This document shows, one piece after another, positions 1,132-21,692 of a stretch of DNA of 37,181 nucleotides. How positions within the stretch are numbered: the stretch's first letter is position 1; each line of letters begins with the position of its first letter. Both the position numbers and the translations under genes were made by a program. The notes under the pieces were generated by a model. That model had not been told where the DNA came from, ran no database searches, and worked only from the letters and a program-made list of their open reading frames with translations. Origin of the DNA: an uncultured Burkholderiales bacterium (lineage in GTDB: Bacteria > Pseudomonadota > Gammaproteobacteria > Burkholderiales > Thiobacillaceae); assembly GCA_938038385.1 (NCBI GenBank), contig CALHRD010000079.1, positions 1 to 37,181 of the forward strand. The letters are read 5' to 3'.

Positions 1132-1153
1132 AGACCCGCCACCGCTGCCGGGC

Positions 1154-1678
1154 ATGAGCCGGATCAACCGTGCCCTGGACCGCCTGGAGGAGGGCATCAC
1201 CCTCTCTTTCATGGCGGCCGCCACCCTGGTGACCTTCGTCTCGGTGGCCCTGCGCTATCTGTTCGGCACCGGCTTCACCTGGGCCACCGAGCTGACCATC
1301 TATCTGTTCATCTGGATGGCCAAGTTCGGCGCCGCCTACGGTGTGCGCACCGGCATCCACGTCGGCGTGGACTACGTGGTGAACAAGGCCGGGCCGGTGC
1401 TAAAACGTTTCCTGGTGGTCACGGGGATGCTGCTCGGGGTGATCTTCACCGGGGTCATCGCCTTCTTCGGCGCACGCTGGGTGATCTTCATCCACGGCAC
1501 CGGCCAGGTCTCCCCCGATCTGGAGTGGCCCATGTGGATCATCTACCTGGCCATCCCCCTGGGCTCGGGCCTGATGTGTTACCGCTTCCTGCAGGGGCTC
1601 ACCCATTTCTGGCGTACCGGGAAGGTGCCCGAGCACACCCTGGGTCAGGACTACGGCGAGGAAGAGGTTCGGCCGTGA
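1154..1678 (+). CDS. dctQ: TRAP transporter small membrane subunit, DctQ family
   Basis: Small integral membrane subunit of the TRAP transporter, 174 aa with four predicted membrane segments (about residues 15-35, 48-66, 90-112 and 130-150). The stretch AKFGAAYGVRTGIHVGVD is typical of DctQ, where GxHI/V-type motifs follow the second helix. The start is the first ATG after dctP in this frame (MSRINRALDRLEE); the Shine-Dalgarno sequence is weak, so translation may depend on coupling to dctP. Its stop codon overlaps the GTG start of dctM (GTGA), which implies one operon and coupled translation. Assignment rests on size, topology and position between dctP and dctM. Confidence 0.9.
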   Translation: MSRINRALDRLEEGITLSFMAAATLVTFVSVALRYLFGTGFTWATELTIYLFIWMAKFGAAYGVRTGIHVGVDYVVNKAGPVLKRFLVVTGMLLGVIFTGVIAFFGARWVIFIHGTGQVSPDLEWPMWIIYLAIPLGSGLMCYRFLQGLTHFWRTGKVPEHTLGQDYGEEEVRP

Positions 1679-3774: not shown

Positions 3775-3957
3775 CCCTCCCCGACCGGGTGACCGGCCGG
3801 TCCACCCCCTGCCCTGCGTTCGTCCATGATGGGTCGAGGGCGGGGCATGCGACCTCCGCCTTACACCCACATGTCGTCCCGGTTGCCATGTATGTCGCCG
3901 CAGCGACTCACGTCGTCACCCGCTTGGTCTGCCCCCGTTCGTAACCGAGAGGTTGTC

Positions 3958-5043: not shown

Positions 5044-5046
5044 GGC

Positions 5047-8000
5047 ATGTTCGCCCGCCTGACCGAATTCGCCCTCACCCAGCGCCTGCTCATCCTTGGG
5101 CTCACGCTCCTGCTCACCGCTGCAGGCCTTCAGGCCTGGCGCGCGCTGCCCATCGACGCCTTCCCCGACGTCTCCACCACCCAGGTCAAGATCATCCTCA
5201 AGGCCCCCGGCATGACCCCGGAGGAGGTGGAGATGCGCATCGCCGCCCCGGTGGAGACGGAGATGCTGGGCATCCCCCGCCAGCGCATCCTGCGCTCCAT
5301 CTCCAAGTACGGGCTCACCGACATCACCATCGACTTCGAGGACGGCACCGACATCTACTGGGCGCGCAGCCAGGTGGCCGAGCGTCTGAACGGGGTCATG
5401 GCCGCCCTGCCCGAGGGCGTGGAGGGTGGGCTCGCCCCCATCACCACGCCGCTGTCGGAGATGTTCATGTTCACCGTGGACGCGCCGGACCTGGACCTCA
5501 CCGAGCGGCGGGCCCTGTTGGACTGGGTGATACGCCCCCAGCTCAGAACCCTGCCCGGCGTCGCAGACGTCAATGCCCTCGGCGGCCTGGTGAAGACCTT
5601 CGAAGTGGCGCCGGACAACGCCGCCATGAGTGCGCGCGGGGTCACGCTGATGGAACTGGCCGAGGCCATCAGGGCAAACAACCGCAACGACGGCGCCGGA
5701 CGGCTGACCGAGGGCGAGGAGGTGTGGCTGGTCCGGGTGGAGGGTGCGGTCAGGAACCTGGACGACCTCGCCGGCATCGTCGTCAAGACCGTAAATGGGG
5801 TGCCGGTGCGGGTCTCCGACGTCGCCGCGGTGCGCCTGGCGAGCCTCACGCGTTACGGCGGAGTGACCCAGGATGGTCGTGCCGAGGCGGTGGAGGGCCT
5901 GGTGCTGGGGCTGAAGGGGGCCAACGCGCGCCAGGTGGTGGCGGCGGTCAAGCAGCGCCTGGCGGAGATCGCCCCCAGTCTGCCCGAGGGAGTCAGCGTC
6001 AGGCCTTTCTACGACCGGTCTGCGCTGGTCGAGCGGGCGGTAGGCACCGTATCCAGGGCGCTCATGGAGGCCATCGTCCTTGTGCTGGTGTTGCTGGTGC
6101 TGTTCCTGGGCAATGCGCGTGCCGCCCTCACGGTGGCCCTGACCCTGCCCCTCGCGGCTCTGGCCACCTTCCTGCTCATGGGGTCCTTCGGCCTGTCCGC
6201 CAACCTCATGAGCCTGGGGGGGCTCGCCATCGCCATCGGCATGCTGGTCGACGGCGCGGTGGTGGTGGTCGAGAACATCGTCAGTCACCTCGCCCACGAC
6301 GAGAGCCCCCAGCCCAAGCTGCACCGGGTGTTCCGCGCCGTGCGCGAGGTGGCCACACCCACTGCCAGTGGGGTGGCCATCATCCTCATCGTCTTCCTGC
6401 CCCTGCTCACCCTGCAGGGACTGGAAGGCAAGCTGTTCATCCCGGTGGCACTGACCATCGTCTTTGCCCTGGGGGCGGCCCTGCTCCTGTCGCTCACCGT
6501 GGTGCCGGTGCTGGCCTCCTGGCTGCTGAGGGAGGGGAAACATGGTGACCCCTGGCTTGTGCGCCTGGCCCTGCGCCTGTACACACCGGTGCTGGACTTC
6601 GCCCTCAAACGGGTGAAGACCGTCGTGGCCGCGGCCGTGCTGATGCTGGCACTGGCCATCGGCCTATATCCTTTCATCGGCAAGTCCTTCATGCCCACCC
6701 TGGATGAGGGCGATCTGCTGGTGCAGCTGGAGAAGCTGCCGTCGATCAGCCTGGAGGAGAGCCTGGCGCTCGACATGGCAGTGCAGCGCGCACTGATGCA
6801 GCGCATCCCCGAGATCCGCGGTGTGGTGGCGCGGGCCGGCTCGGACGAGCTGGGCCTCGACCCCATGGGGCTCAACGAGACCGACAGCTTCCTCATCCTG
6901 AAACCGTTGACAGAGTGGCGCCGGCCGGACAAGGACTGGCTGATGGAGGAGATCCGCCGGGTGATGGCGGACTTCCCTGGCATCAACTACGCCTTCACCC
7001 AGCCCATCGACATGCGCGTGTCGGAGATGCTGACCGGCGCGCGCGGCGACCTGGCGGTGAAGATATTCGGACCGGACATCGACACCCTGAATGGTCTCGC
7101 CGACCGCGTCGAGGCCCTGCTCAAGACCGTACCCGGCGCACAGGACGTGTTCGCCAAGAAGAACGAGGGGGTGCAGTACTTCCGCGTCGAGGTCGACCGT
7201 CTGGCCGCGGGCCGCTACGGGCTCGGCGTCGACGACGTCGCCGCCTTCCTCAGGGCGCATCTGGAGGGCAAGACCCTGGGCATCGTGCAGGAAGGTGTGC
7301 GGCGCACCCCGCTCACGCTGCGGGCGGGCGAGAACATCCGTCTGTCGCCGGCCCTGTTCGAGTCCCTGCGCATCCCCACCGCCTCGGGACTGGCCATCCC
7401 CCTGAGGGAGGTGGCGCACCTCACGCGCGCCGAAGGCCCCGTGGCGGTCAACCGCGAGAATGCCGCCCGTTACGTCACGGTGCAGAGTAATGTGGCCGGC
7501 CGCGACCTGGTCGGTTTCGTCACCGAGGTGCGGGAAAAGATCGCCACAGAGGTGCAATTGCCGGACGGTTACCGGGTGGCCTACGGCGGTCAGTTCGAGA
7601 ACCAGCAGCGCGCCGCCGCCCGGCTGGCGGTGGTGGTGCCGGTGGCGCTCGCGCTGATCTTCGCCCTGTTGTTCGCCACCTTCAAGTCGGTCAAGCAGGC
7701 GGTGCTGGTGCTGGCCAACATCCCCTTCGCCCTGGTGGGGGGGGTCGCTGCCCTGTTCCTGACCGGTGAATACCTCTCGGTTCCGGCCTCGGTCGGCTTC
7801 ATCGCCCTCCTCGGCATCGCCGTGCTCAACGGCGTGGTGCTGGTCACCTACTTCAACCAGCTCGCCGCGCGCGGCTTCACTGCCGCACAGGTGGTGCGCG
7901 AGGGGGCCCTGCGGCGGCTGCGGCCGGTATTGATGACCGCCAGCATCACCGCCTTCGGCCTGGTGCCCCTGCTGCTGGCCAGCGGCCCGGGCTCCGAGAT

Positions 8001-8109
8001 CCAGAAGCCGCTGGCCATCGTCGTGGTCGGCGGCCTGGTCACCTCGACCGCACTGACCCTGATCCTGCTGCCGGTACTCTACCGGCGCCTAATCCTGAAG
8101 GAGGCATGA
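5047..8109 (+). CDS. czcA: Heavy-metal RND efflux pump, CzcA/CusA family
   Basis: Inner-membrane proton-driven pump of the heavy-metal RND family, 1020 aa, normal full length. The expected layout is visible: N-terminal helix and DAFPDVSTTQVKI (about 38-50), first periplasmic domain, membrane helices from about 340 to 510 including the NLMSLGGLAIAIGMLVD motif with Asp402 and VVVVEN, second periplasmic domain, and the C-terminal helix group ending LTLILLPVLYRRLI. In helix 4 the text is AIAIGMLVDGAVV; the first Asp of the DFG..VD motif of Zn/Co/Cd pumps is absent, so the metal (Cu/Ag, Ni or Zn/Cd) is not settled. The ATG follows GGGGGAGTGAGGC and its end overlaps the next gene by ATGA. Confidence 0.92.
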   Translation: MFARLTEFALTQRLLILGLTLLLTAAGLQAWRALPIDAFPDVSTTQVKIILKAPGMTPEEVEMRIAAPVETEMLGIPRQRILRSISKYGLTDITIDFEDGTDIYWARSQVAERLNGVMAALPEGVEGGLAPITTPLSEMFMFTVDAPDLDLTERRALLDWVIRPQLRTLPGVADVNALGGLVKTFEVAPDNAAMSARGVTLMELAEAIRANNRNDGAGRLTEGEEVWLVRVEGAVRNLDDLAGIVVKTVNGVPVRVSDVAAVRLASLTRYGGVTQDGRAEAVEGLVLGLKGANARQVVAAVKQRLAEIAPSLPEGVSVRPFYDRSALVERAVGTVSRALMEAIVLVLVLLVLFLGNARAALTVALTLPLAALATFLLMGSFGLSANLMSLGGLAIAIGMLVDGAVVVVENIVSHLAHDESPQPKLHRVFRAVREVATPTASGVAIILIVFLPLLTLQGLEGKLFIPVALTIVFALGAALLLSLTVVPVLASWLLREGKHGDPWLVRLALRLYTPVLDFALKRVKTVVAAAVLMLALAIGLYPFIGKSFMPTLDEGDLLVQLEKLPSISLEESLALDMAVQRALMQRIPEIRGVVARAGSDELGLDPMGLNETDSFLILKPLTEWRRPDKDWLMEEIRRVMADFPGINYAFTQPIDMRVSEMLTGARGDLAVKIFGPDIDTLNGLADRVEALLKTVPGAQDVFAKKNEGVQYFRVEVDRLAAGRYGLGVDDVAAFLRAHLEGKTLGIVQEGVRRTPLTLRAGENIRLSPALFESLRIPTASGLAIPLREVAHLTRAEGPVAVNRENAARYVTVQSNVAGRDLVGFVTEVREKIATEVQLPDGYRVAYGGQFENQQRAAARLAVVVPVALALIFALLFATFKSVKQAVLVLANIPFALVGGVAALFLTGEYLSVPASVGFIALLGIAVLNGVVLVTYFNQLAARGFTAAQVVREGALRRLRPVLMTASITAFGLVPLLLASGPGSEIQKPLAIVVVGGLVTSTALTLILLPVLYRRLILKEA

Positions 8110-8498
8110 TGGAACAGTCCCCGACGACACCGGTCGTCCCCCCCCAAGGGGGCAGTCAGCAGCACGCTTGGGACGGCCTGCCGCGTGCCGACGCGAATCT
8201 CGTGCAACTGACCCTGGCCGCGCCCAGGCAGCTTGAGGAAGACCTGGTCGACCAGCTCCTGGCCCACCCGGACTGGGCGGCCGGTTTCACGCTCTTTCGC
8301 GCCGAGGGTCACAGCCAGCGCGCGGAAACACTCACGACCCAGGAGCGGGTGCGTGGTCGTGCCGAGCGCATCAGTCTGCTGATCGTGCTGGAACCCGGGC
8401 AGGCACAGGCGCTGCTCGCCCACCTCAAACTGCACCTTCCCAAACGGGACGTGGCCTACTGGCTGACGCCGGTGATCGAATTCGGGAGACTCGCATGA
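8106..8498 (+). CDS. DUF3240-like small protein within the metal-efflux operon
   Basis: A 130-aa soluble protein with no signal peptide or membrane segment. The core from about residue 32 (NLVQLTLAAPRQLEEDLVDQLLAHP) through RAERISLLIVLEPGQAQALLAHLKLHL to the end VAYWLTPVIEFGRL fits the small ferredoxin-like DUF3240 family commonly encoded beside czc/cus genes; its function is unknown, perhaps metal sensing or chaperoning (inference). The start overlaps the czcA stop (ATGATG at 8106-8111); AAGGAGG at 8098-8104 fits the second ATG (8109) better than the first. The stop overlaps the following gene (ATGA). It is unusual in lying between the pump and channel genes. Confidence 0.75.
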   Translation: MMEQSPTTPVVPPQGGSQQHAWDGLPRADANLVQLTLAAPRQLEEDLVDQLLAHPDWAAGFTLFRAEGHSQRAETLTTQERVRGRAERISLLIVLEPGQAQALLAHLKLHLPKRDVAYWLTPVIEFGRLA

Positions 8499-9748
8499 TG
8501 CACAGGCTAGCCATCCTGGCCATCCTCCTCCTGTTCGCGTCCGTGAGCCGGGCGGCGACCGGGACACCGCCGGCAGACCTGCCCGACGCGCAGGCCGCGT
8601 TGGCCGCGCTCGACAACCATCCCCAGGTCCGCGCCGCGCAAGCCCGGTTGCGCGTAGCGCAGGCCGAGCGCCAGCGTCTGCAGGCCGGCAGCCATGAATA
8701 CGCTCTGCGTCTGAATGCCCAGCGGCGCGGCGTCAGGGGCGGCCCCGATCACGACGAATGGGAAGCAGCCATTGAGCGGGGGCTGCGGTTGCCGGGCAAG
8801 GCACGCCTGGACGAGCGCATCGGCGTCGTGGGCGTGGAGGAGGCCGAGGAGCGGGTGGGCGATGCCCGCCACGAGGCGGCGAAGCAGCTCCTCACCCTCT
8901 GGTATGCGGTCCTGCAGACCCAGGCCGAGGTCCGCCTCTGGCGCGAACAGGTCGAGCTGCTGGAAGCGGAGAGCCGTATCGTGCGCAGCCGGGTCAGGGC
9001 GGGCGATGCTGCCCGCATGCAGACCCTGCAGGCCGAGGCCGCTGTGGCCCAGGCCATCTCACAGCAGGGACAAGCGCAGGCCCGTGCGCGCATGGCGCTG
9101 GCCGAATTGAGCCGGCATTTCCCCGATCTGCCCGCTCCGGGCGACCGGGCCGCGGAGCCCGTTTTACCCGAGGGGGGCGAGGCACAATGGCTGGACCAGA
9201 CCCTGGCGCACAATCACGAGCTCCTGGCCGTCCAGCGGGCCGTGGAGCGGGCCCGACTGCTCGCCCAGCGCACCGACGCGGAGAGACGGCCCGACCCCGT
9301 GCTCGGCCTGCGCTATGCCAACGAACAGGGAGGAAACGAGCGCGTGCTCGGGGTGAGCCTCAGTATCGCGCTGCCCGGCGAAGCCCGGCGCGCGGCGGCC
9401 AGTCTGCAGGCGGCCGAGGCCGAGGCGCTCGCGGAGGTGGAGGCGGCCACACGCCGCCGGCTGACGGCCGAGGCCACGGCCAATTGGCTGCGGGCATCCG
9501 GTGCGGTGGAGGCCCACCGGCGCATGGCGCAGGCCGCGGCAGCGGCAACGCGTCACGCGGATCTGACCCGTCGTGCCCATGAGCTGGGTGAGCTGGGCCT
9601 GTCCGAAGTCCTGCTTGCGCGGCGAACGGCCCTGGAGGCACACATCGCAGCCGAACAGTCCCGTCTCGGCGCCAACGAAGCCATCGCCCGCCTGCTGCTG
9701 GATGCCCATCTCCTCTGGCCTTGGGCTGGCGAGAATGGGCACCACTAA
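8495..9748 (+). CDS. czcC: Outer-membrane efflux protein, TolC/CzcC-like
   Basis: Outer-membrane channel subunit of the efflux pump (417 aa), with signal peptide MMHRLAILAILLLFASVSRAA and two repeated long coiled-coil halves (about 35-215 and 225-405) typical of the OEP/TolC family; Ala/Glu/Arg-rich heptads such as RLRVAQAERQRLQAG are evident. The start overlaps the previous stop by ATGA, so translation is probably coupled. Gene order here is adaptor-pump-DUF3240-channel, whereas classical operons put the channel first. It ends 27 bases before a gene on the other strand; no clear terminator is seen in that gap. Confidence 0.85.
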   Translation: MMHRLAILAILLLFASVSRAATGTPPADLPDAQAALAALDNHPQVRAAQARLRVAQAERQRLQAGSHEYALRLNAQRRGVRGGPDHDEWEAAIERGLRLPGKARLDERIGVVGVEEAEERVGDARHEAAKQLLTLWYAVLQTQAEVRLWREQVELLEAESRIVRSRVRAGDAARMQTLQAEAAVAQAISQQGQAQARARMALAELSRHFPDLPAPGDRAAEPVLPEGGEAQWLDQTLAHNHELLAVQRAVERARLLAQRTDAERRPDPVLGLRYANEQGGNERVLGVSLSIALPGEARRAAASLQAAEAEALAEVEAATRRRLTAEATANWLRASGAVEAHRRMAQAAAAATRHADLTRRAHELGELGLSEVLLARRTALEAHIAAEQSRLGANEAIARLLLDAHLLWPWAGENGHH

Positions 9749-11850: not shown

Positions 11851-12113
11851 TTAGCGCCGCGACTGCTGCCAGCGCGCCATGAGCAGGCAGGCGACCAGCT
11901 CGCCGGCCACGTCGATGGCGCTACGGCTCATGTCCAGGATGCGGTCCACGCCCAGGATCAGGGCGATGCCGGCGGCGGGCACGCCCAGGTTTTCCTCGGC
12001 GGCCTGGATGGACATGGGCATGACCGCCGCCGAGCTGGAGGTGAAAAGGCCAGCACCAGGGGGGTGCGCACCCCGCTGAGGAACCACAGGGGCGAGCGGC
12101 GCGCGACCGGCAT
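11851..12113 (-). pseudogene. Decayed dicarboxylate/amino-acid:cation symporter (SDF family)
   Basis: Two family motifs of sodium/proton:dicarboxylate symporters are fused and broken. Reading from 12113 gives ARRSPLWFLSGVRTPLVLAF, then the frame is lost near 12041-12048; in the next frame TSSSAAVMPMSIQAAEENLGV follows, then directly GIALILGVDRILDMSRSAIDV and a normal-looking C-terminus. In intact members roughly 70-80 residues with the NMDGT motif lie between LGV and the GVDRILDM segment, and some 250 residues precede the part seen here. So the N-terminal half is missing, there is a one-base frameshift, and an internal deletion removed essential helices. Its first ATG overlaps the slipin stop (TGATG), which may be chance or a relic of the old operon. 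Confidence 0.8.
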
Positions 12114-12874
12114 CAGCCCTTGTCGCCCCCCTGTCCGGTCTTGAACAGGCTGAGCAGGTCGCCCGGCACCGGGAAGACGATGGTGGTGGACCGATCGGTG
12201 GCGATGGCGGTCAGGGTCTGCAGATACCTGAGCTGCATGGCCTGCGGGGTTTTGGCCAGCATGTCGGCAGCAGCCAGCAGCTTCTCTGAGGCCTGCAGCT
12301 CGCCCTCGGCGTGGATCACCTTGGCGCGCCGCTCGCGCTCGGCCTCGGCCTGCTTGGCGATGGCCCGCACCATGGATTCGTCCAGGTCCACATGCTTGAT
12401 CTCGACGTTGGACACCTTGATGCCCCAGGCGTCGGTCTGGCTGTCGAGCACCTGTTGGATATCCATGTTGAGCCGCTCGCGCTCGGCCAGCATCTCGTCC
12501 AGCTCGTGCTTGCCCAGGACCGCGCGCAGCGTGGTCTGGGAGAGCTGGCTGGTGGCGGACATGAAGTCCTCCACCTGCAGGATCGCGCGCGCCGGGTCCA
12601 CCACCCGGAAATAGATGACGGCGTTGACCTTGACCGAGACGTTGTCGCGCGAGATCACGTCCTGGGTGGGCACGTCCAGGACGACGATCCTCAGGTCCAC
12701 CTTCACCATCTGCTGCAGGCCCGGGATGACGATGATGAGACCGGGCCCCTTCACCTTCCAGAACCGCCCCAGCATGAAGATCACACCGCGCTCGTACTCG
12801 CGCAGGATGCGCAGCGAGGCGAAGACGATGAAGAGCAGGAATACGAAGATGCCCAGGCCGCCGAAATCGAACAT
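12113..12874 (-). CDS. Slipin / stomatin-like SPFH protein
   Basis: A 253-aa membrane-anchored protein of the SPFH (band 7) family, partner of NfeD-type proteases. One N-terminal membrane segment ([20 protein letters not shown]) is followed by [29 protein letters not shown] and the SPFH domain with [21 protein letters not shown], then a helical arm (about 165-220; [26 protein letters not shown]) used in oligomerisation, and the C-terminal [23 protein letters not shown] motif typical of slipins. The start at 12874 has AAGGAG eight bases upstream; the frame is open further but overlaps nfeD. It follows nfeD on the same strand, the usual arrangement. Likely role: membrane quality control or microdomain scaffold (family knowledge). 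Confidence 0.9.
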
Positions 12875-12936
12875 GTCAGTCTCCTTTGTGAGTGAAGGGT
12901 GATGGGTGAGGCGCGACGGCAGGTAGCCGTTATGCC

Positions 12937-14334
12937 TCACTCCTGTATCGGTTCCACATCCAGGGTCAATCCTTCTATCCGTTTGACCCGGACACGCGTA
13001 CCACGGGTGAGCGGGCGGGGGCTGCGGATGCGCCAGGTCTCGCCGTGGATGTGCGCCCAGCCCTCCGTTTCGCAATCCTCCAGCACCGTCGCCTCGACGC
13101 CCACCAGCTCCTCGGCCCCGGTGACCACCGGGCGGCGGCGTGCCTTCAGTGCCATGCCGACGACGAAGAACATGAACAGGGCGGTACTGGCGGTCAACGA
13201 GAGGATGAGGCCCCAGGGCAGACCGTAGCCCGGGATATCGGTGTCGATGAGCATGACCGATCCCACGACGAAGGCGATGAGTCCGCCCAGGCCGAGGATG
13301 CCGAAGCTGGGCACGAAGACCTCGGCGACCATGAAGGCGATGCCGATGAGGATGAGGGCGAGCCCGGCATAGTCCACCGGCAGCATGTTGAGCGCGAACA
13401 TGGCCATGAGCAGGCTGATTGCACCGATCACGCCCGGCACGCCGAAGCCGGGGTTGGCGAATTCGTAGATCAACCCGTAGATGCCGATCAGCATGAGGAT
13501 ATAGGCGACGCTGGGGTCGCCGATCACGGCGAGCAGGCGGCTGCGCCAATCCGGCTCCAGTGCGGTCGGGCCGACACCCTTGGTGGCGAGCTTCACCTCA
13601 CCTTGCGCGGTCTTGATCGTGCGACCTTCGAGCTTGGCGAGCAGGTCGGCGACGTCCGCGGCGATCAGGTCGATCACGTTCTCCTTGAGCGCCTGCTCGG
13701 CTGACAGGCTCACCGCCTCGCGCACCGCCCGTTCCGCCCATTCCACGTTGCGGCCCCTCAGTTCGGCCAGGCTGCGGATGTAGGCGGTGGCGTCGTGCAC
13801 CTGCTTGCGTGTGAGGGCGTCTCCCGAGGGCAGGGCGGCTGGCGCCTTCTTGGCCTTCTCCGCCTCGTCCTGACCGGCCTTGTCCTTCTCCCCGGCCGGC
13901 GCCTGCGCGGGCTTGTCCTGGCCGGGCTGCGGCCCGCCGATGCCGATGGCCACCGGCGTGGCCGCCCCCAGGTTGGTGGCCGGCGCCATCGCCGCGATGT
14001 GGCTGGCATAGAGGATATAGGTGCCGGCACTGGCCGCGCGTGCCCCCTGCGGATAGACGAAGGTTGCCACCGGCACCGGCGAGGCGAGGATGGCCTGGAT
14101 GATGTCGCGCATGGAGGTGTCGAGCCCCCCCGGCGTGTCCAGCTTGATGACCGCAAGCTGGGCACCCTCCTCGGCCGCGTGTTTCAGGCCGCGGATGACA
14201 TAGTCGGCGCTGGCCGGGCTGATCGCCCCCTGCACGGTGAGCACGGTCACCGGCCGGGCCTGGGCGGCCGAGAGCGACAACATCAGCAGCAAAAACGAGA
14301 ACAGGCGTTGTGGCATGGCGTGGCGTTGGCACAT
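12937..14334 (-). CDS. nfeD: NfeD-type membrane serine protease (ClpP class)
   Basis: A 465-aa membrane protease. Signal-like N-terminus ([19 protein letters not shown]), a Clp/SppA-like protease domain with [16 protein letters not shown] and [11 protein letters not shown] (Ser102 the likely nucleophile) and Lys177 in [17 protein letters not shown] as the possible partner of a Ser-Lys dyad, interrupted by a low-complexity Gln/Lys/Ala/Glu linker (about 136-165). Four or five membrane segments follow (about 265-385) and a soluble OB-fold NfeD domain closes the protein (about 405-462). Members act on slipin C-termini. The start at 14334 is favoured by GAGGTG upstream; ATG at 14316 is an alternative. 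That ribosome-binding site lies inside the left end of a MITE-like element. Confidence 0.9.
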
Positions 14335-14336
14335 GA

Positions 14337-14530
14337 GGGCACCTCGAAAAACCGTCGCGAGCGGCCCGAGTGCAAGACGGACGGAGCGCGAGCCGCGAGA
14401 CATATCAAACAGATGGGCGAGGGCGCGCAAACGCAGTTTCGGCGAAGGCTAACGTGAGCGCAGCGAGCGGCCAAAGCCAACGCCGCCCAACGCAGCAATC
14501 GGGTGGCGCGGCAGGTTTTTCGAGATGCCC
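14337..14530. repeat. MITE-like element, shorter relative of 3014-3362
   Basis: A 194-bp segment bounded by GGGCACCTCGAAAAACC (14337-14353) and GGTTTTTCGAGATGCCC (14514-14530), inverted copies with one difference. Its interior matches 3014-3362 in reverse orientation, lacking about 22 bp of the GC-rich part and the whole nested element. The end sequences differ from those of the relative although each pair is self-consistent. A partial TTCGAGATGCCC copy follows at 14532-14543. The left end supplies the bases just ahead of nfeD. Confidence 0.7.
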
Positions 14531-14936: not shown

Positions 14937-16598
14937 ATGCAGATCAGTGTCGCCGAACTCATCGTCGGTTTCATGCAGCGCCTGGGGGTCGAGGCGATCT
15001 TTGGCATGCCCGGCGCGCACATCCTGCCGGTGTATGACGCCCTCTACGACGCGCCCATCCGCACCGTGCTGGCCAAACACGAGCAGGGCGCGGCCTTCAT
15101 GGCCGGCGGCTACGCCCGCGCCACCGGGCGGGTGGGCGCCTGCATCGCCACTGCCGGGCCCGGCGCCACCAACCTCGTCACCGGCATCGCCAACGCCTAC
15201 GCAGACCGGCTGCCGGTGCTGGCGATCACCGGCGAGACCGCCACCTACATCTTCGGCCGCGGTGGCTTGCAGGAGAGCTCCGGCGAGGGCGGCAGCGTCG
15301 ACCAGGCCGAGCTGTTCCGGCCCATCACCCGCTATCGCAAACTGCTGGAGCGCACCGACTATCTGGAGGCTGTGCTGAACCAGGCCGCCGCCGCCCTGCT
15401 CGACGACCCACCCGGGCCGGTACTGCTCAGCCTGCCCTACAACGTGCAGAATGAGCGCGTGGACGCCGGCTTGCTCGATCGTCTGCGCACCACCCCCACG
15501 GCCACCCGGCTGGTCGCCGAGGAGCCCGTGCGCCGCCTGGCACGGATGCTCACGGATGCCCGCCAGCCGGTGATCGTCGCCGGCTACGGCTGCATCCGCG
15601 CCGGCGCCCAGGCCGAGCTTGCCCGGCTGTCGCAGACCCTGGGCATCCCGGTGGCCACCAGCCTCAAGGCCAAGGGGGCGGTGGATGAGGACGCCCCGCT
15701 CGCCCTGGGCAGCCTGGGCGTGACCTCCAGCGGCGAGGCCTACCGCTACATCGTCGAGCGCGCCGATCTGCTGCTGATCCTCGGCGCGAGTTTCGGCGAG
15801 CGCACCAGCTATGTCTGGGATGCCGATCTGCTGGCGGGCAAGTGCATCGTGCAGGTGGACCTCGATGCGCGTCAGCTCGACAAGGTCTTCCGCCCCGACC
15901 TGGCGATCCAGGGCGACATCCGCGCCGTGCTCGCCGCCGTGCTGAGCCAGCTGCCGAACGATCTCGGGCCGCCGGCGACCCAGGCGACGGAGATTCACGC
16001 CAACCGGCACGCGGTGCGGGGCGACTACGCCCTGTTCCGCGAGGGCTTTGCCACCGTGCGGCGCTTCTTCCGTGAACTCGCGCGCCAATTCCCGCGCGAG
16101 ACCCTGGTGTTCGACGACAACATCATCTTTGCCCAGAACTTCTACCGCGTCGTCGGCAACAACCGCTACTTCCCCAACACCGGCATCTCCTCGCTGGGAC
16201 ACGCGATCCCCGCGGCCATCGGCGCGCGTCTGGGCACACCCGGCACCGCTGCCACCTTCGCCATCCTCGGTGACGGCGGTTTCCAGATGTGCGGCATGGA
16301 GCTCATGACCGCCGTCAACGAAGGCCTGCCGCTCAACGTCGTGCTGCTGAGCAACGGCACCATGGGGCTGGTGCGCAAGAACCAGTACCAGCACTACGGC
16401 CAGCGTTACATCGGCTGCGATTTCGTCAATCCCGACTTCGGGCTCCTGGCGCGCGCCTTCGGTATCGCCCACCGGCGGGTGCAGACCGAGGCCGACGTGG
16501 ATGCGGTGTTCGCGGACATGGACCTGAGGGGCGGCATAAACCTGATCGAGATCGTGCTCGAACGCGACCTGTTTCCCAATTACTCCTCGCGGCGCTGA
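14937..16598 (+). CDS. Acetolactate-synthase-like ThDP-dependent enzyme, substrate unknown
   Basis: A 553-aa enzyme with the three-domain plan of the acetolactate synthase / pyruvate oxidase group. The N-terminal PYR domain has the catalytic glutamate (Glu49 in LAKHEQGAAFMAGGYARATG) and ATAGPGATNLVTGIANAY; a middle domain follows (about 190-325); the PP domain carries the metal/ThDP motif GDG (445-447) with SN at 472-473. No regulatory (IlvN-like) subunit gene follows, which argues against ordinary branched-chain amino-acid synthesis. The stop overlaps the next start (TGATG), tying it to a glycosyltransferase-like gene. A role in making an unusual acyl or sugar precursor is possible (inference). 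The start ATG lacks a clear ribosome-binding site; the upstream open frame runs through repeats. Confidence 0.82.
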   Translation: MQISVAELIVGFMQRLGVEAIFGMPGAHILPVYDALYDAPIRTVLAKHEQGAAFMAGGYARATGRVGACIATAGPGATNLVTGIANAYADRLPVLAITGETATYIFGRGGLQESSGEGGSVDQAELFRPITRYRKLLERTDYLEAVLNQAAAALLDDPPGPVLLSLPYNVQNERVDAGLLDRLRTTPTATRLVAEEPVRRLARMLTDARQPVIVAGYGCIRAGAQAELARLSQTLGIPVATSLKAKGAVDEDAPLALGSLGVTSSGEAYRYIVERADLLLILGASFGERTSYVWDADLLAGKCIVQVDLDARQLDKVFRPDLAIQGDIRAVLAAVLSQLPNDLGPPATQATEIHANRHAVRGDYALFREGFATVRRFFRELARQFPRETLVFDDNIIFAQNFYRVVGNNRYFPNTGISSLGHAIPAAIGARLGTPGTAATFAILGDGGFQMCGMELMTAVNEGLPLNVVLLSNGTMGLVRKNQYQHYGQRYIGCDFVNPDFGLLARAFGIAHRRVQTEADVDAVFADMDLRGGINLIEIVLERDLFPNYSSRR

Positions 16599-18151
16599 TG
16601 GGGCAGCCCCGGCACGACTTCTTCATCGTCATCCCGGTGGCCGACCGGCCGCGGCAGTTGTCCGACTGCCTCGACAGCCTGGCCGGACTGCTGCGGCGTT
16701 TCCCCTATGCCGGCGCGGTCTGCGTGCTGATCGCCGACGACAGCCTGGAGGCGGCGGCGACCGAGCGGCACCGCGCGCTGGCCGAGGCGCACACCCGCTC
16801 CGGCCTGCCCACCCATCACCTGGACCGCGCCGCACAGCAGGCCCTGGTTCTCGGTCTGCCCGACGCGCTGCGGGATCGGCTCGCCGGTGTCCTCGGCCGC
16901 CCCCGGGTCGACGCCGCCGAACGCCTGGGGCCGTCCGTCACCCGCAACCTGGCCTGCCTGTGGCTGAGCCGCCTGCCGCACGGCGGACGGCGCCGCCTGA
17001 TCTGGTTCGTCGACAGCGACGAGCGTTTCCAGGTCGAGGCGGAGACGACGACGGGCGAAGCACAGGCCCATGACCTCGACTACCTGCACACCCTGGACCG
17101 CCTCTTCGGCGAGCGGCCGATCGAGGTCCTGACCGGCAAGGTGGCGGGCGACCCACCGGTGTCGCCGGCGGTGATGGCCGGCACCCTGCTCGACGACGTG
17201 CTCGCCTTCCTCACCGAGCTGGCCGGCCTGGACCCGCACGCCCCCTGTCGCTTTCATGGCCAAGCCGCCCGGGCTGCCGGGGCCGCTTACCACGACATGG
17301 CGGACCTGTTTGGTTACCCTGCCTCTGCCGCCGTGCGCTACCGCTGCCCCCTGCCGGGAGAACACGATCACATCGCCTGTCTGGCCCGTTTCGCCGCCGG
17401 CCTCGGGCAGTTCTTCGACGGTGTGCACCCCACCCGCCGCAGCCGGTTCGATCCCGCCACGCCACTGGCGCTCGCGCCGGCGCGCACCGTCTACACCGGC
17501 AATTACGTCGTCACCGAGTCGGCCCTGGCCTGGTTCATCCCGTTTGCCGACCTCAGGCTGCGCATGGCCGGCCCCACCCTGGGGCGGCTGCTCAAGGCCG
17601 AACTGGGGGAACGTTTCGTCTCCGCCAACCTGCCCCTCTGGCACGGTCGGACCCTCGCCGACCTGGGCCGCTCGGAGTGTCGCCCGGGCATCGTGCATAC
17701 GGCGAGGGGGGTGGATCTCGGTGGCGAGTTCGAGCGTCAGTACTTTGGCGACGTACTGCTGTTCGCCATCGAAGCGCTTGCCCGGCTCGGCTACCCTGGC
17801 AGCGGTCCGGACGCAGAGGCGATCCGGCACGCGCTTGCAGCGGTCGAGGCGCGTCTGCATGCACGCTATCTCGCCCAGCAGACGACGGTGGCCGGACGCA
17901 TCGTCCGGCTGCAGGCGGAGCTGGAGGGCGTCGACCGGTGGTGGCGGCAGGATGCGGCATCGGCCCCGGCGCGGGCGGCCCTGGCGCACTTCCTGCGCGA
18001 CCTCGAACACAACTTCGGCCCGCAGTCCCACCCCTGGCGGCGGATCTTTGCCCCCGCTCACCGTGCAGCGCGGCTCGACGAATTGAGCGCGGCGCTCTCG
18101 CGTCATGCGGACGAACGCGCCGCCTGGCGGGAGGCACTGCGACCGGGATGA
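16598..18151 (+). CDS. Glycosyltransferase-like protein (GT-A type N-terminus)
   Basis: A 517-aa protein. The N-terminus (HDFFIVIPVADRPRQLSDCLDSLAGLLRRF, then VCVLIADDS) is the opening of GT-A (GT2-like) glycosyltransferases, and RRLIWFVDSDERFQV holds a DxD-type motif (Asp139-x-Asp141) for a sugar nucleotide and metal. The remaining 370 residues are not familiar to me; they include a helical C-terminal part and the segment YTGNYVVTESALAWFIPFADLRLRMAGPTLGRLL, which may bind the acceptor. No membrane segments are evident. Its start overlaps the stop of the ThDP enzyme, so the two are probably made together. The sugar and acceptor are unknown. Not a close match to any named enzyme that I can recall. 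Confidence 0.65.
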   Translation: MGQPRHDFFIVIPVADRPRQLSDCLDSLAGLLRRFPYAGAVCVLIADDSLEAAATERHRALAEAHTRSGLPTHHLDRAAQQALVLGLPDALRDRLAGVLGRPRVDAAERLGPSVTRNLACLWLSRLPHGGRRRLIWFVDSDERFQVEAETTTGEAQAHDLDYLHTLDRLFGERPIEVLTGKVAGDPPVSPAVMAGTLLDDVLAFLTELAGLDPHAPCRFHGQAARAAGAAYHDMADLFGYPASAAVRYRCPLPGEHDHIACLARFAAGLGQFFDGVHPTRRSRFDPATPLALAPARTVYTGNYVVTESALAWFIPFADLRLRMAGPTLGRLLKAELGERFVSANLPLWHGRTLADLGRSECRPGIVHTARGVDLGGEFERQYFGDVLLFAIEALARLGYPGSGPDAEAIRHALAAVEARLHARYLAQQTTVAGRIVRLQAELEGVDRWWRQDAASAPARAALAHFLRDLEHNFGPQSHPWRRIFAPAHRAARLDELSAALSRHADERAAWREALRPG

Positions 18152-18229
18152 AACGACCCCCTGATCCGCTATGCTCGTTTCCCCCCGAGGGGGTGGTCGG
18201 TTCCTTCGCGGCGGCCGTGCGCAACTGAC

Positions 18230-18769
18230 ATGAACGTCTTCGTCCTCACCGCCGGCCGCAGCGGCTCCACCACCTTCATCGCCGCCTGCCGGCACATCAC
18301 CAATTACACCTGTGGCCACGAAAGCCGCGTGCGCCGGATCGGCGCGGAGCGCCTGGCCTATCCCGAGCGTCACATCGAGGCGGACAACCGCCTGGCATGG
18401 TACCTGGGTCGGCTGGACGCCATCTACGGCGAGCGGGCACGCTACGTCCACCTGCTGCGCGATCCTGAGGCCTGTGCGGCGAGTTTCGCCCGCCGCGCGG
18501 ATTTCGGCATCATGCAGGCCTGGCGCGAGGGCGTGCTGCTGGGTGGCGAGACCGACCAGACGGCGCATGCGCTCGCGCTGGACTATCTCGCCACCGTCCA
18601 GGCCAACATCGTCCAGTTCCTGCGCGACAAGCCGCACGTGATGACCTTCCGGCTGGAGCGGGCACGGGAGGATTTCCGGGCCTTCTGGGACTGGATCGGC
18701 GCCGAGGGGGACCCCGTGGCGGCCCTGGCGGAGTGGGATCGCCGCTACAACGCCTCGCCCGATGGCTGA
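18230..18769 (+). CDS. Sulfotransferase-like protein
   Basis: A 179-aa protein with the two PAPS-binding signatures of the sulfotransferase family: an N-terminal P-loop-like VLTAGRSGSTTFIAAC (5'-phosphosulfate loop, about 5-20) and RYVHLLRDPEACAASFARR (3'-phosphate region, Arg77 and Ser85). It is shorter than most sulfotransferases (typically 250 aa or more), so it may have a reduced acceptor part or act on a small molecule. It lies 78 bases after the glycosyltransferase-like gene; that gap holds a CCCCCGAGGGGG palindrome. With the neighbours it suggests a sulfated glycan or metabolite (inference). Its last 25 bases overlap the convergent methyltransferase gene. Confidence 0.72.
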   Translation: MNVFVLTAGRSGSTTFIAACRHITNYTCGHESRVRRIGAERLAYPERHIEADNRLAWYLGRLDAIYGERARYVHLLRDPEACAASFARRADFGIMQAWREGVLLGGETDQTAHALALDYLATVQANIVQFLRDKPHVMTFRLERAREDFRAFWDWIGAEGDPVAALAEWDRRYNASPDG

Positions 18770-19407
18770 GGCTGTCGTTGCAGCATGGCACACCCCCGCC
18801 CGGTATCCATCTCGGTCACGACCAGGTCGGGAAATTCACGTCGCCAGCGCCTGAGGATCGCCTGTTCGTCCGGACGTGCCGCATCATCCAGGAAGACCGT
18901 GCCAGCAGGGCCGAGCCGGGCAAAGAGCAACGGCATGGCCGGATAGCGTGCCAGGGGTGCCAGACGGCCGGGCGGGCCGTCGATGACCAGGAGATCGATC
19001 ATCGTCTCGGGCAGGCCGGTGAGATCGTACCAGGCATGGGTCTCGGCACCCAGTGTGTAGGGACGCAGGGGGGCGTCCAGCACCGTGGCGTGACCTTCCA
19101 GGTCATAACGGGCCAGCTCGGCGCGACAGGCGTCCGCGTGCTCGGGCAAATGCTCCAGGCTGAGGACCCGGCCCACCCCCTTCAACGCGCAGCAACCCGC
19201 CAGCATGACGGTGGACAGGCCACTGCCGCACTCGACGATGTGACCCGGCCGGGTGACGAGGACATGCTCGACCAGCAGCGCCAGGAAGTCTGCACCGGCG
19301 CTCCAGTGACGCGTGTAGGGCAGGCCCTGGCGCAGGCCCAGCTTCGCGCCCAGGTCCAGATAGGCCTCCAGTTCCGCGACCCGCTGCCGCAGATCCTCAC
19401 CGGTCAT
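18745..19407 (-). CDS. Class I SAM-dependent methyltransferase
   Basis: A 220-aa soluble Rossmann-type methyltransferase. Motif I is HIVECGSGLSTVMLAG (Glu59-Cys-Gly-Ser-Gly), a form typical of the Methyltransf_24-like group; the acidic strand end RVLSLEHLPEHADACRAEL follows, and DLLVIDGPPGRLAPLARYP and AGTVFLDDAARPDE are later motifs. Substrate unknown. The start overlaps the stop of the upstream membrane-protein gene by ATGA, so the two are co-transcribed. It converges on, and overlaps by 25 bases, the sulfotransferase-like gene, which may be simple packing or may reflect a shared pathway. Confidence 0.82.
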   Translation of the reverse strand: MTGEDLRQRVAELEAYLDLGAKLGLRQGLPYTRHWSAGADFLALLVEHVLVTRPGHIVECGSGLSTVMLAGCCALKGVGRVLSLEHLPEHADACRAELARYDLEGHATVLDAPLRPYTLGAETHAWYDLTGLPETMIDLLVIDGPPGRLAPLARYPAMPLLFARLGPAGTVFLDDAARPDEQAILRRWRREFPDLVVTEMDTGRGCAMLQRQPQPSGEAL

Positions 19408-19802
19408 CTCACGCCGCGCAGACGATAGAAGACGTAGGGTGCCATGGCGGTCCAGATCGGGATCAGCACCCAGAGCCTGCCGGCGCTCAGGTCGTAGTCA
19501 CGCAGCAGGCGGCTCCAGGGGTGGCCCATCACATAGTGGAAGATGCCGAACTCGAACGCCAGGGTGAGCCCGAGCCAGAGTGCGCCCACACCGACCGCCA
19601 GGCCTGCGGAAGGCAGGGGCCAGCGCGCGGTGAACCAGCCGATGTAGAGCGTGAACAGCAGCAGACCGAGGAGGGTGGAGAGCTGGTGCGCGGCCAGTTC
19701 CGTCATTTGCGCTGCATAAAGACCCTCACGCAGCGCGCCATTCGCCATGGCGATGGCGAGCAGCCCCAGCCAGCCCAGGGCATAGAGTGTGAGGGTGGGC
19801 AT
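19404..19802 (-). CDS. Four-helix integral membrane protein of unknown function
   Basis: A 132-aa protein with four predicted membrane segments (about 4-22, 40-58, 66-86 and 106-126). Noticeable parts are GWLGLLAIAMANGALREGLYA near the start, HQLSTLLGLLLFTLYIGWFTARWPLP and FGIFHYVMGHPWSRLLRDYDLSAGRLWVLIPIW. I recognise it only as the type of small conserved membrane protein often annotated as hypothetical. It sits directly upstream of the methyltransferase (ATGA overlap) and nine bases downstream of the PNPOx-like gene. A weak GAGG lies upstream of the ATG. Confidence 0.7.
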   Translation of the reverse strand: MPTLTLYALGWLGLLAIAMANGALREGLYAAQMTELAAHQLSTLLGLLLFTLYIGWFTARWPLPSAGLAVGVGALWLGLTLAFEFGIFHYVMGHPWSRLLRDYDLSAGRLWVLIPIWTAMAPYVFYRLRGVR

Positions 19803-19811
19803 GGCCGGGCC

Positions 19812-20270
19812 TCAACCCCCTGCCACGGTCACCAGCCGCGTGTGGCCGAACCCCTTGGTGTAGTCCAGGATCGAGATCACCCTGGGCACCACCCTGACGA
19901 AGGCGATCAGGGCCGGGTCCTCCGGCTCGGGCATCTCCACCCATTGCGGGAACTTGCGCCTGAGCAGTTCCTGCGCGCGCCTGCGCTCGTCGGGGTCGGT
20001 GACCACATGGGCGGTGCCCCCCAGGGAGAGACCCCGTATCCGGTTCCAGTCCGGGTAATCCCGATCTATGGTGGCGGAAACCTTGTCGTTCAGGCCGACG
20101 TTGGCCACCTTCTGTCCGTCGGGGTCGCAGGCGAAGTACAGGATCAGGCCGTCATTGGCATAGGCCACGGTGGTCGCCTGCGGCCAGCCGTCCGGACGGA
20201 CGGTGGCCAGGGTCATGACGTTGTGGCTGGCCATCAGGTCGAGGATGAATTCGCGCTCGCTTGCTTCCAT
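19812..20270 (-). CDS. Pyridoxamine 5'-phosphate oxidase-like flavin-binding protein
   Basis: A 152-aa protein of the split-barrel PNPOx-like family. The N-terminus EFILDLMASHNVMTLATVRPDGWPQATTVAYAND is characteristic, followed by KVANVGLNDKVSATID and GTAHVVTDPDERRRAQELLRRKFPQ; such proteins bind FMN, F420 or haem, and most lack true pyridoxamine oxidase activity. The start at 20270 has AGGAGC nine bases upstream. It appears to head a three-gene strand with the membrane protein and the methyltransferase, starting after the dsrE2 terminator. Cofactor and substrate are not readable from sequence. Confidence 0.82.
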   Translation of the reverse strand: MEASEREFILDLMASHNVMTLATVRPDGWPQATTVAYANDGLILYFACDPDGQKVANVGLNDKVSATIDRDYPDWNRIRGLSLGGTAHVVTDPDERRRAQELLRRKFPQWVEMPEPEDPALIAFVRVVPRVISILDYTKGFGHTRLVTVAGG

Positions 20271-20450: not shown

Positions 20451-20960
20451 TCAGATGAACAGACAGATATCCGTCTCGCCGGCGAACTCGAAGAAGGTGG
20501 CGGCGCCACCGAACTCGATGCCGCTGATGAAGTCGCTGTGCTCGAAGCCGAACAGTTCCACGGTCATCTGGCAGGCGATGAACTTCACGTCCGCCTCCTG
20601 GCAGAGGCTCCTCAACTCGGGGATGGTCGCCACGCCGTTGTTCTTGATGGTCATCTTCATCAGCGTGGTGGCCAGCGATTCGTAACCGGGCACGATGGCC
20701 TGCACCGCGTTGGGGATGTTCCAGTTGATGTCGCGGAACCACTTCGGCCCGAACGGCATCTTCATGGGCATGCCCGGATTGCCCAAGGGGCTGACCTTGA
20801 GGTCGCTCACGTCCTTCTTGAGCAGTTGCAGGCCGTAGAAGGTGAAGAAGATCTGGGTCTCGTAACCCAGCGCGGCGGCCGTCGAGGCCAGGATGAAGGG
20901 AGGATAGGCCCAGTCCAGGGTCCCTTTGGTCGCAATGATCGCCAGCTTTTTCTCGTCCAT
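20451..20960 (-). CDS. dsrE2: DsrE2-family sulfur-carrier protein
   Basis: A 169-aa protein of the DsrE/DsrF/DrsH-like group, DsrE2 type. KKLAIIATKGTLDWAYPPFILASTAAALG is the typical opening, with MPMKMPFGPKW mid-sequence. Two cysteines, Cys120 and Cys130 in ELRSLCQEADVKFIACQMTVELFG, are the likely sulfane-sulfur carriers. In sulfur oxidisers such as Allochromatium, DsrE2 works with a rhodanese and TusA in moving sulfur in the cytoplasm; the gene order here (rhd-tusA-dsrE2) is the same. The ATG at 20960 follows GAGGTGG; a GTG lies one codon upstream. A GC-rich imperfect hairpin stands in the gap behind tusA. Confidence 0.9.
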   Translation of the reverse strand: MDEKKLAIIATKGTLDWAYPPFILASTAAALGYETQIFFTFYGLQLLKKDVSDLKVSPLGNPGMPMKMPFGPKWFRDINWNIPNAVQAIVPGYESLATTLMKMTIKNNGVATIPELRSLCQEADVKFIACQMTVELFGFEHSDFISGIEFGGAATFFEFAGETDICLFI

Positions 20961-21018
20961 CACACCACCTCGTTATTGGGTTGGCAGGCCGCCCCGCAAG
21001 GCGGGCCCCGGGGGGGTT

Positions 21019-21246
21019 TTACTTCTTCTTGATGAAGAAGGTGAATTCACCGCCGCCTTCGGTCGAGGACAGCAGCTCGTTGCCGGTCTGCTTGGCAAAG
21101 GCGGCAAAGTCCTTGACCGAACCCGGATCGGTGGCGATGACCCGAAGCACCTCGCCGGAGGCCATTTCGTTCAGGGTCTTCTTGGTGCGCAGGATGGGCA
21201 GGGGGCAGTTCAGGCCGCGTGCGTCGAGGTCTTTATTGAAATCCAT
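21019..21246 (-). CDS. tusA: TusA-family sulfurtransferase
   Basis: A 75-aa protein of normal TusA size. The active-site motif is CPLPIL with Cys14 (DARGLNCPLPILRTKKTL), followed by the usual two-layer fold ending in FFIKKK. TusA carries persulfide sulfur between partners; in dissimilatory sulfur oxidisers it passes sulfur between rhodanese, DsrE proteins and the Dsr or sHdr systems. A good GGAGAAG site precedes the start. It is flanked by the rhodanese and dsrE2 genes on the same strand. Which downstream oxidation system it feeds is not visible in this window. Confidence 0.93.
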   Translation of the reverse strand: MDFNKDLDARGLNCPLPILRTKKTLNEMASGEVLRVIATDPGSVKDFAAFAKQTGNELLSSTEGGGEFTFFIKKK

Positions 21247-21362
21247 TCGGGCTTCTCCTTCAACAAATTAGGAAGTGCTGAAAAAAGCTGGGCAACATTA
21301 AACCAGTTACAGCCTGATTGCAACCGGCGAACACCCGCTGCGCCTGATAGCTTGTCGAGGCG

Positions 21363-21692
21363 TCAGGACGGATAGGTGATGGGACGGCCCGAACGTGCCC
21401 AGGCCTGTATGCCCCCGGCCAGGTTGTGCATGTTGCGAAAGCCCTTGGCGGCCATGAAGGCGCAGGCCTGGGCGGAGCGGGCGCCGGAGTTGCAGTAGAT
21501 GACCACCGGCTTGTCCTCCGGCACCTCATCGGCGCGCAGGGGCAGCAGATGCAGGGGGATGTGGATGGCGCCGTCGATCACGCCGCGGGACACCTCCGCA
21601 TCGGTGCGCACGTCGATGAGGTGGATGCCTTCCTTGTTGCCGGCATCCAGAAAATCCACGCCCACTTCCTTGAAGTTGTACATGCCGTACAT
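21363..21692 (-). CDS. Single-domain rhodanese sulfurtransferase
   Basis: A 109-aa single-domain rhodanese, first gene of the operon. The active-site loop is CNSGARS with Cys67 (VVIYCNSGARSAQACAFM); HLIDVRTDAEVSRGVIDGAIHIPL is the usual CH2A-like region and NLAGGIQAWARSG the usual end. It probably takes sulfane sulfur from a donor (thiosulfate, persulfide or GSSH) and passes it to TusA. The ATG follows GAGGAGAGG. Equivalent to the rhodanese of the conserved rhd-tusA-dsrE2 clusters of sulfur-oxidising bacteria (family knowledge). A promoter and dyad lie directly upstream. Confidence 0.9.
   Translation of the reverse strand: MYGMYNFKEVGVDFLDAGNKEGIHLIDVRTDAEVSRGVIDGAIHIPLHLLPLRADEVPEDKPVVIYCNSGARSAQACAFMAAKGFRNMHNLAGGIQAWARSGRPITYPS

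Follow-up and report, generated by a model that had tools for sequence, protein, structure and literature searches.

A conserved gene pair for a ThDP-dependent enzyme and a GT-A-fold protein, with alternative third genes, is a candidate biosynthetic operon of Dsr/Apr sulfur oxidisers

The genes considered here lie in a stretch of 37,181 nucleotides (the window) that forms contig 79 (CALHRD010000079.1) of the genome of an uncultured Burkholderiales bacterium of the Thiobacillaceae (GCA_938038385.1; 2.56 Mb, 140 contigs). In the window, a gene for an enzyme dependent on thiamine diphosphate (ThDP) is followed by genes for a protein of the glycosyltransferase GT-A fold (the GT) and a compact sulfotransferase, upon which a methyltransferase gene converges. 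The explanation put forward, at a probability of about 0.45, is a conserved biosynthetic operon whose ThDP-GT core makes a sugar-containing product, with either a sulfate/methyl branch or an acyl-activation branch, in bacteria that oxidise sulfur by way of Dsr and Apr. The four-gene layout described in an earlier, sequence-only reading was reproduced from the open reading frames (ORFs), with the same coordinates (Table 1). The ThDP and GT genes meet in TGATG, with one base common to both ORFs, 78 bases separate the GT gene from the sulfotransferase gene, and the tails of the sulfotransferase and methyltransferase genes overlap by 25 bases (18745-18769).

Conservation was assessed in 80 loci from genomes of named species (L numbers). 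These are the best of 99 retrieved with patterns derived from the window's own GT, and near relatives are over-represented among them. Up to 10 kb was fetched on each side (four loci end at a contig edge), and neighbouring genes were taken from a codon-scored gene call, the gene starts of which are estimates. In 78 of the 80 loci the gene immediately upstream of the GT gene, in the same orientation, was a ThDP gene; the median gap was -1 base, and 40 of the 78 pairs overlapped. Where the title tells, the loci belonged to Beta- and Gammaproteobacteria, and they included Thiobacillus, Parasulfuritortus, Sulfurisoma, Sedimenticola, Thiodiazotropha, Thiolapillus and Tepidiphilus. The GT family was present in 36 of the 61 genomes of a search among relatives; 34 of the 37 genomes of the bacterium's own family had it, the source genome included (the misses were G018, G020 and G030), as did 2 of the 24 other genomes of the order. 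Of 369 genomes drawn evenly over the class, 22 had the GT family, and these carried 15 different family labels; an even draw over the phylum gave 3 positives in 398 genomes, which belong to the same order.

The relatives search and the class draw (G numbers) together supplied 57 GT-positive genomes, all of which were covered by a census of ThDP, sulfotransferase, ligase and methyltransferase relatives. The ThDP family (at least 56% identity to P0001) was found in 56 of them. The ThDP and GT genes shared a contig in 49 genomes and were clearly apart in six (G009, G012, G019, G026, G033 and G278); in G034 they are probably split by a contig end. The negative control consisted of 80 of the 97 dsrA-matching genomes that were GT-negative, and is dsrA-positive only. 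Here the ThDP family occurred in a single genome, G350 (60% identity, a partial match over residues 1-462), which may lack the GT through its assembly, and the next best match reached 38%. Some ThDP enzyme was detected at E 1e-60 in 72 of the 80 control genomes, from which the family is separated by identity alone. Because the co-occurrence was also seen with the genes on separate contigs, it does not reflect linkage alone. By these neighbourhood and co-occurrence counts the gene set is more than a product of chance. The proposal that all four genes are conserved together held in part: the ThDP-GT pair recurs and the sulfotransferase and methyltransferase co-occur, the conserved core being the ThDP-GT pair only.

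Two alternative third genes were found. The gene after the GT on the same strand encoded a sulfotransferase in 34 of the 80 loci, a ligase of about 428 residues in 27 and another protein in 15 (including L040, which breaks off at the contig end within a sulfotransferase-like stretch), the contig ending at this point in the remaining four. Sulfotransferase and ligase were never found together (0 of 80 loci); the ligase is the third gene of other loci and does not occur in the window. A methyltransferase relative (>100 bits) was present in the fetched stretch of 20 loci, of which 19 were sulfotransferase loci and none a ligase locus. Consistent with this, 24 of the 57 GT-positive genomes carried the sulfotransferase, and the methyltransferase was found in 22 of these 24 (missing in G029 and G361) versus none of the 33 GT-positive genomes lacking the sulfotransferase. 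Both genes lay on a contig other than that of the ThDP-GT pair in G004, G015, G035 and G314, and they were on different contigs from one another in G007, G011, G143, G300 and G395, in some cases perhaps through contig ends. A strong ligase match (>600 bits) was obtained in six of the 57 genomes, always beside the GT and never with the sulfotransferase, and weaker matches elsewhere (up to 226 bits, including one in the source genome) were treated as paralogs. The ligase profile matched solved PaaK ligases (9s3l at E 1.9e-32), and NCBIfam ligase models were matched in 26 of 26 ligase rows, the member shown in full scoring far below every curated cut-off; no Pfam model matched either of the two members tried. 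By its profile the ligase is akin to the PaaK/CapK/F390-type adenylate-forming ligases, from which it differs by its tie to the ThDP-GT pair.

The ThDP protein matched all three Pfam TPP_enzyme domains (N, M and C) and, with its activating Glu and metal motif, belongs to the superfamily. Its best NCBIfam model was TIGR00118 (acetolactate synthase large subunit), at 355.8 bits versus a cut-off of 538.35; among the matches listed (25 of 51), the remaining 24 models scored lower, all under their own cut-offs. No ilvN-like gene adjoined the ThDP gene in the window or appeared among the conserved neighbours in the 80 loci, which bears out the earlier remark that a regulatory subunit gene is lacking. 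In the source genome ilvN, recognised by eye, was found on contig 35, directly downstream of the one other match to the ThDP protein (32% identity), and this gene is the genome's acetohydroxyacid synthase (AHAS, ilvB-ilvN). A tree was built of 20 family members and 10 references, leaving out the Gemmatirosa reference and all other family members. The 20 family rows formed a single clade (support 100/98), separate from E. coli IlvB, E. coli IlvI and the genome's own IlvB, so that the comparison with the IlvB clade suggested by the sequence-only reading placed the protein outside it. BbmA and AruI stood on the family's side of the tree, away from IlvB/IlvI. Very long branches were seen for several references, and the long-branch warning of the tool included AruI beside the family, for which reason the exact sister of the family is unsure.

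Identity to the window's ThDP protein was 30.7% for E. coli IlvB, 30.9% for BbmA (PDB 8x3x, the nearest solved chain by sequence) and 31.2% for the AruI-type enzyme of Phaeobacter, compared with 55-79% within the family. Columns conserved in more than 97% of 72 family rows included E49, the metal motif, R289 and N482, as well as a stretch at 115-119 peculiar to the family. We take E49 to be the ThDP-activating Glu, R289 the acceptor-site Arg of AHAS, and N482 to stand where AHAS has its Trp. The alignment also reproduced the known replacements of the Glu by Val in E. coli Gcl and of the Trp by Gln in E. coli IlvB, which served as a sanity check. The protein thus resembles AHAS (IlvB/IlvI) and acetolactate synthase-like enzymes in its three domains, E49, the GDG...N metal motif and the acceptor-type R289, and departs from AHAS in the Asn at the Trp site, an insertion around 115-119 and the absent regulatory subunit gene. 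Judged by sequence, the enzyme looks like an undescribed clade of its own outside the named models.

No Pfam family scored above its cut-off for the GT protein. Pfam searches of 59 GT rows returned DUF6271 in six (best E 0.0002) and Glycos_transf_2 in four (best E 0.0097), neither convincing, the GT profile gave no sensible match among the sequences of solved structures, and no GT match was present among 72,556 plasmid records. An AlphaFold2 model built from the 59 rows (predicted local distance difference test, pLDDT, 92.4; predicted template modelling score 0.92) retrieved GT-A enzymes in Foldseek with modest E-values. Its top match in VIA was MtdL (Z 19.6, root-mean-square deviation 3.0, 292 residues, model span 3-517), followed by the rice UDP-arabinopyranose mutase UAM2 (Z 18.4, 282 residues, root-mean-square deviation 3.6), with the next enzymes at 16.7 or less; absence from the VIA lists was not taken to exclude a family. 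The GT-A assignment made from the sequence alone therefore stood in the model, with the amendment that the nearest folds are GT75 mutases, not plain GT2 enzymes.

The GT75-like core and C-terminal helices were present in the model, a shared fold that does not prove family membership. In hhalign, a weak GT75 profile of two rows gave a probability of 0.4% against the GT. The family shares with GT75 (MtdL, UDP-arabinopyranose mutase) the GT-A fold, a helical C-terminus, a DxD motif and a His followed by x-Arg; GT75 proteins have about 370 residues compared with 490-633, as called, in this family. Both DxD (D139, D141) and HxR (H349, R351) were invariant in 59 of 59 rows. In MtdL, Mn is bound by the DXD motif and His287, Arg159 is the proposed nucleophile and Asp260 the proposed base (PMC9937993). 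With the register to MtdL placed by eye, no conserved counterpart of this catalytic Arg or base Asp was found in the GT family: no Arg column reached 90% at residues 117-279, and no acidic column did so at 237-359, the nearest being E335 (Glu in 48 of 59 rows). The protein probably still binds donor and metal, and neither the mutase residues nor the usual GT2 base is conserved. The protein is more likely a GT-A enzyme with an unusual base, a transferase rather than a mutase, and its family, which has no named relative at the sequence level, looks undescribed.

The sulfotransferase matched Sulfotransfer_3 just below the Pfam cut-off (23.8 versus 27 bits). Only 2 of 33 family rows matched this model at E 0.01, and the sulfotransferase profile gave no sensible match among the sequences of solved structures. 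In VIA, rows 1-27 for its predicted model (pLDDT 93.7) were all sulfotransferases, headed by the curacin domain 4gbm (Z 14.0, 164 residues); row 28 was shikimate kinase (Z 10.6), with P-loop kinases at 10.6 and less. The residues G9 R10 G12 S13 (GRxGS) and R77...S85 were invariant in 33 of 33 rows, and presumably form the loops for the 5'- and 3'-phosphates of 3'-phosphoadenosine-5'-phosphosulfate (PAPS). The sulfotransferase fold and the invariant phosphate loops support the use of PAPS by the modelled protein despite the weak Pfam score, in keeping with the short PAPS-dependent sulfotransferase read from the sequence. Fold and phosphate-loop motifs are common to it and to the curacin domain 4gbm, Cpz8, SgdX2 and tyrosylprotein sulfotransferase; it differs in its length of 179 residues, its 14-18% identity to those of them that the VIA rows name and its operon partners. 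An adenosine 5'-phosphosulfate (APS) kinase relative was found in 6 of the 80 loci, four of the six being Thiodiazotropha or Ctena symbionts, which is no more than suggestive of PAPS supply beside the operon genes. In Candidatus Venteria ishoeyi an APS kinase gene (L042:9100-9738; PF01583, 225 bits) directly precedes the GT gene, and the ThDP gene is not adjacent.

The methyltransferase, of class I and dependent on S-adenosylmethionine (SAM), matched Methyltransf_24 (PF13578) above the cut-off (30.5 versus 26.3 bits). In the one-contig genome G094 the methyltransferase match (C1:96774-97294) fell into two overlapping pieces, suggesting a frameshift or sequencing error, and in G143 a TGA lies within the match. 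An anti-phage role was considered and rejected, PADLOC having yielded just a weak match of the methyltransferase to the mads_2 model (24.4 bits).

The link between the system and sulfur oxidation is one of statistics and of gene position, not of function. In the class draw, dsrA was matched in 119 and aprA in 112 of the 369 genomes. A dsrA match was present in 22 of 22 GT-positive versus 97 of 347 other genomes (Fisher p 4e-12) and an aprA match in 21 of 22 versus 91 of 347 (Fisher p 5e-11), values that overstate the significance, the genomes being related and not independent. Curated cut-offs were passed in 20 of the 22 GT-positive genomes for dsrA (G268 and G324 had fragments) and in 20 of 22 for aprA (G300 had fragments and G278 none), and the dsrA count takes oxidative and reductive types together. 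The source genome has dsrA on contig 18 and aprA on contig 65. An aprA relative lay in the fetched stretch of 9 of the 80 loci, and at most 6 kb from the operon in G094, G185 and G197. Since 97 dsrA-matching genomes lack the GT system (22 of 119 have it), the system is not required for the Dsr/Apr route. The aprA scores of GT-positive genomes fell at 899-934 bits in 19 of 21 cases, with G158 (1084) and the fragments of G300 as exceptions; many other aprA matches scored 938-1117 bits, and GT-negative genomes also occur in the 899-934 band. The GT system may be associated with a single AprA lineage. A CxxCxxCC (YkgJ-like) protein was encoded beside an aprA gene close to the operon in L075, L076, L083, L088, L097, L098, L104, L109 and L110, the member in L109 belonging to Pfam PF03692.

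A glycosylated product with alternative decorations fits these results best. In the proposed operon, the ThDP enzyme would decarboxylate a 2-oxo acid and join the acyl unit to an acceptor, and the GT would bind a nucleoside diphosphate (NDP)-sugar with a metal and transfer the sugar to the ThDP product or its carrier. In one branch the PAPS-dependent sulfotransferase and the SAM methyltransferase would then decorate the product; in the other, the CapK/PaaK-type adenylating ligase in third place would probably attach or activate a carboxylic acid. As product, a glycoside or a decoration of a glycan or lipid would be expected, in bacteria that oxidise sulfur by the reverse Dsr and Apr route. The substrates, the order of the steps, the product, its location at the surface and its role are what we infer. 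A point in favour of a glycan is that a stray sulfotransferase homolog of the GT-negative genome G219 (L123) sits, by eye, between GT2-like and flippase-like proteins in a glycan cluster. It is unlikely, if conceivable, that many Dsr/Apr oxidisers share a hitherto unseen dedicated metabolite, the work of a novel ThDP carboligase and of a novel GT-A glycosyltransferase family devoid of the GT75 mutase residues, with maturation by sulfation plus methylation or by adenylate-type acyl activation, and that this compound serves sulfur handling as a carrier, a cofactor or a sulfur-contact surface glycan.

Several observations weigh against the proposed operon. The GT occurred without an adjoining ThDP gene in 2 of the 80 loci (L042 and L080) and without any ThDP relative in G158, where the GT match contains a TGA stop codon. 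Decoration is not universal, 27 of the 57 GT-positive genomes having neither the sulfotransferase nor a strong ligase match. Conversely, the sulfotransferase was found without the ThDP-GT pair in 2 of the 80 GT-negative genomes (G184 and G219), and the methyltransferase was not seen in either of their 3.5-kb sulfotransferase loci, examined partly by eye. The missing conserved acid at the GT2/GT75 base position leaves the transfer chemistry not assured, and the surface-glycan part is weakened by the lack of any conserved transporter, flippase or polymerase beside the genes in the 80 loci.

The same genes could make a soluble small molecule for the Dsr/Apr route, such as a cofactor, a low-molecular-weight sulfur carrier or a compatible solute, in place of a surface glycan. 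The tight dsrA/aprA link, the nearness of aprA to the operon in the 9 loci and three genomes given above, the position of the window's methyltransferase run after rhodanese-TusA-DsrE2 genes and the lack of conserved export genes all point this way. However, the system is confined to 22 of the 119 dsrA-matching genomes, no enzyme that would add cysteine turned up among the conserved genes, and the alternative compositions suggest a tailorable product, which leaves a soluble product somewhat unlikely. Nor need the genes share a product at all: they may adjoin by the shared ancestry of sulfur oxidisers, with the ThDP-GT pair, the sulfotransferase and the methyltransferase in separate jobs. This would agree with the absence of the sulfotransferase and methyltransferase from more than half of the pair-bearing genomes and with their placement on another contig in four genomes. 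It was judged quite unlikely in view of a co-occurrence that holds on separate contigs and across the 15 family labels of the class draw, and of the contrasts for the methyltransferase (22 of 24 versus 0 of 33) and the sulfotransferase (24 of 57 versus 2 of 80), p-values for which are overstated by kinship.

Two further alternatives concern single enzymes. The best fold matches of the GT, MtdL and rice UAM2, stand above the next enzymes and would suit a GT75-type NDP-sugar pyranose/furanose mutase that supplies another enzyme with a furanose donor, a branched sugar nucleotide then being the product of the ThDP enzyme; with no conserved counterpart of the proposed catalytic residues Arg159 and Asp260 of MtdL (PMC9937993) in the register placed by eye, a mutase is very unlikely. 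It is hardly credible that the ThDP enzyme serves branched-chain amino acid synthesis as a diverged acetolactate synthase and that the rest is incidental. The enzyme's best NCBIfam model is of that type and E49 and R289, in the roles we assign to them, are kept as in AHAS, but the score falls far short (355.8 versus 538 bits), the protein lies outside the IlvB/IlvI clade, the genome has its own ilvB-ilvN elsewhere, Asn482 occupies the AHAS Trp site and the GT is a near-constant partner.

Around the four genes, the window contains further genes of several kinds (Table 1). The PPOX, 132-residue and methyltransferase genes form a single minus-strand run, which follows the rhodanese-TusA-DsrE2 run, also on the minus strand, after 180 bases. 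Whether the 132-residue and PPOX proteins are part of the system is uncertain; among the 80 loci, a PPOX relative was near the operon in L031 only. Upstream of the ThDP gene (12113-14430, minus strand) are an NfeD gene and a second gene, SPFH-type by eye, and the NfeD position is kept in two close relatives, L031 and L051. Farther upstream, genes for the DctQ and DctM proteins of a tripartite ATP-independent periplasmic (TRAP) transporter (821-3000) just precede an efflux operon of the resistance-nodulation-division (RND) type (3826-9748, plus strand), with HlyD-family, AcrB-family, DUF3240 and outer-membrane efflux genes in series.

Table 1. Positions of the operon genes and their neighbours in the window.
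Feature	Position	Strand	Remarks
ThDP-dependent carboligase/decarboxylase-type enzyme, core gene 1	14937-16598	+	553 aa; ATG at 14937, TGA ending at 16598
GT-A-fold protein, core gene 2	16598-18151	+	517 aa; closest to GT75 (MtdL, UAM) by fold
Compact PAPS-type sulfotransferase, branch gene	18230-18769	+	179 aa
Class I SAM methyltransferase (Methyltransf_24), branch gene	18745-19407	-	220 aa; convergent with the sulfotransferase gene
Protein without a Pfam family	19404-19802	-	132 aa; 4-base overlap with the methyltransferase gene
PPOX-type protein	19812-20270	-	PNPOx_N match; 9 bases from the 132-aa gene
DsrE2	20451-20963	-	NCBIfam score 262 versus cut-off 210
TusA-like protein	21019-21246	-	CPxP motif, identified by eye
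Rhodanese	21363-21692	-	First of the sulfur-relay run 20451-21692

All of the superfamilies involved are already known, and it is their combination that looks undescribed. In agreement with the sequence-only reading, no described pathway with this gene set was found in the literature, a search of open-licence papers only and hence weak evidence of absence. Nothing relevant appeared among the entries listed for BbmA either. If the product serves sulfur oxidation, the operon would supply a missing part of a much-studied pathway of soils, sediments and animal symbionts such as Thiodiazotropha and Sedimenticola. Even if it does not, the system offers a ThDP clade that no named model covers and a GT-A family lacking named relatives at the sequence level, in each of which invariant active-site residues can be assayed. 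A core that stays constant while its finishing enzymes vary is also a clean natural experiment.

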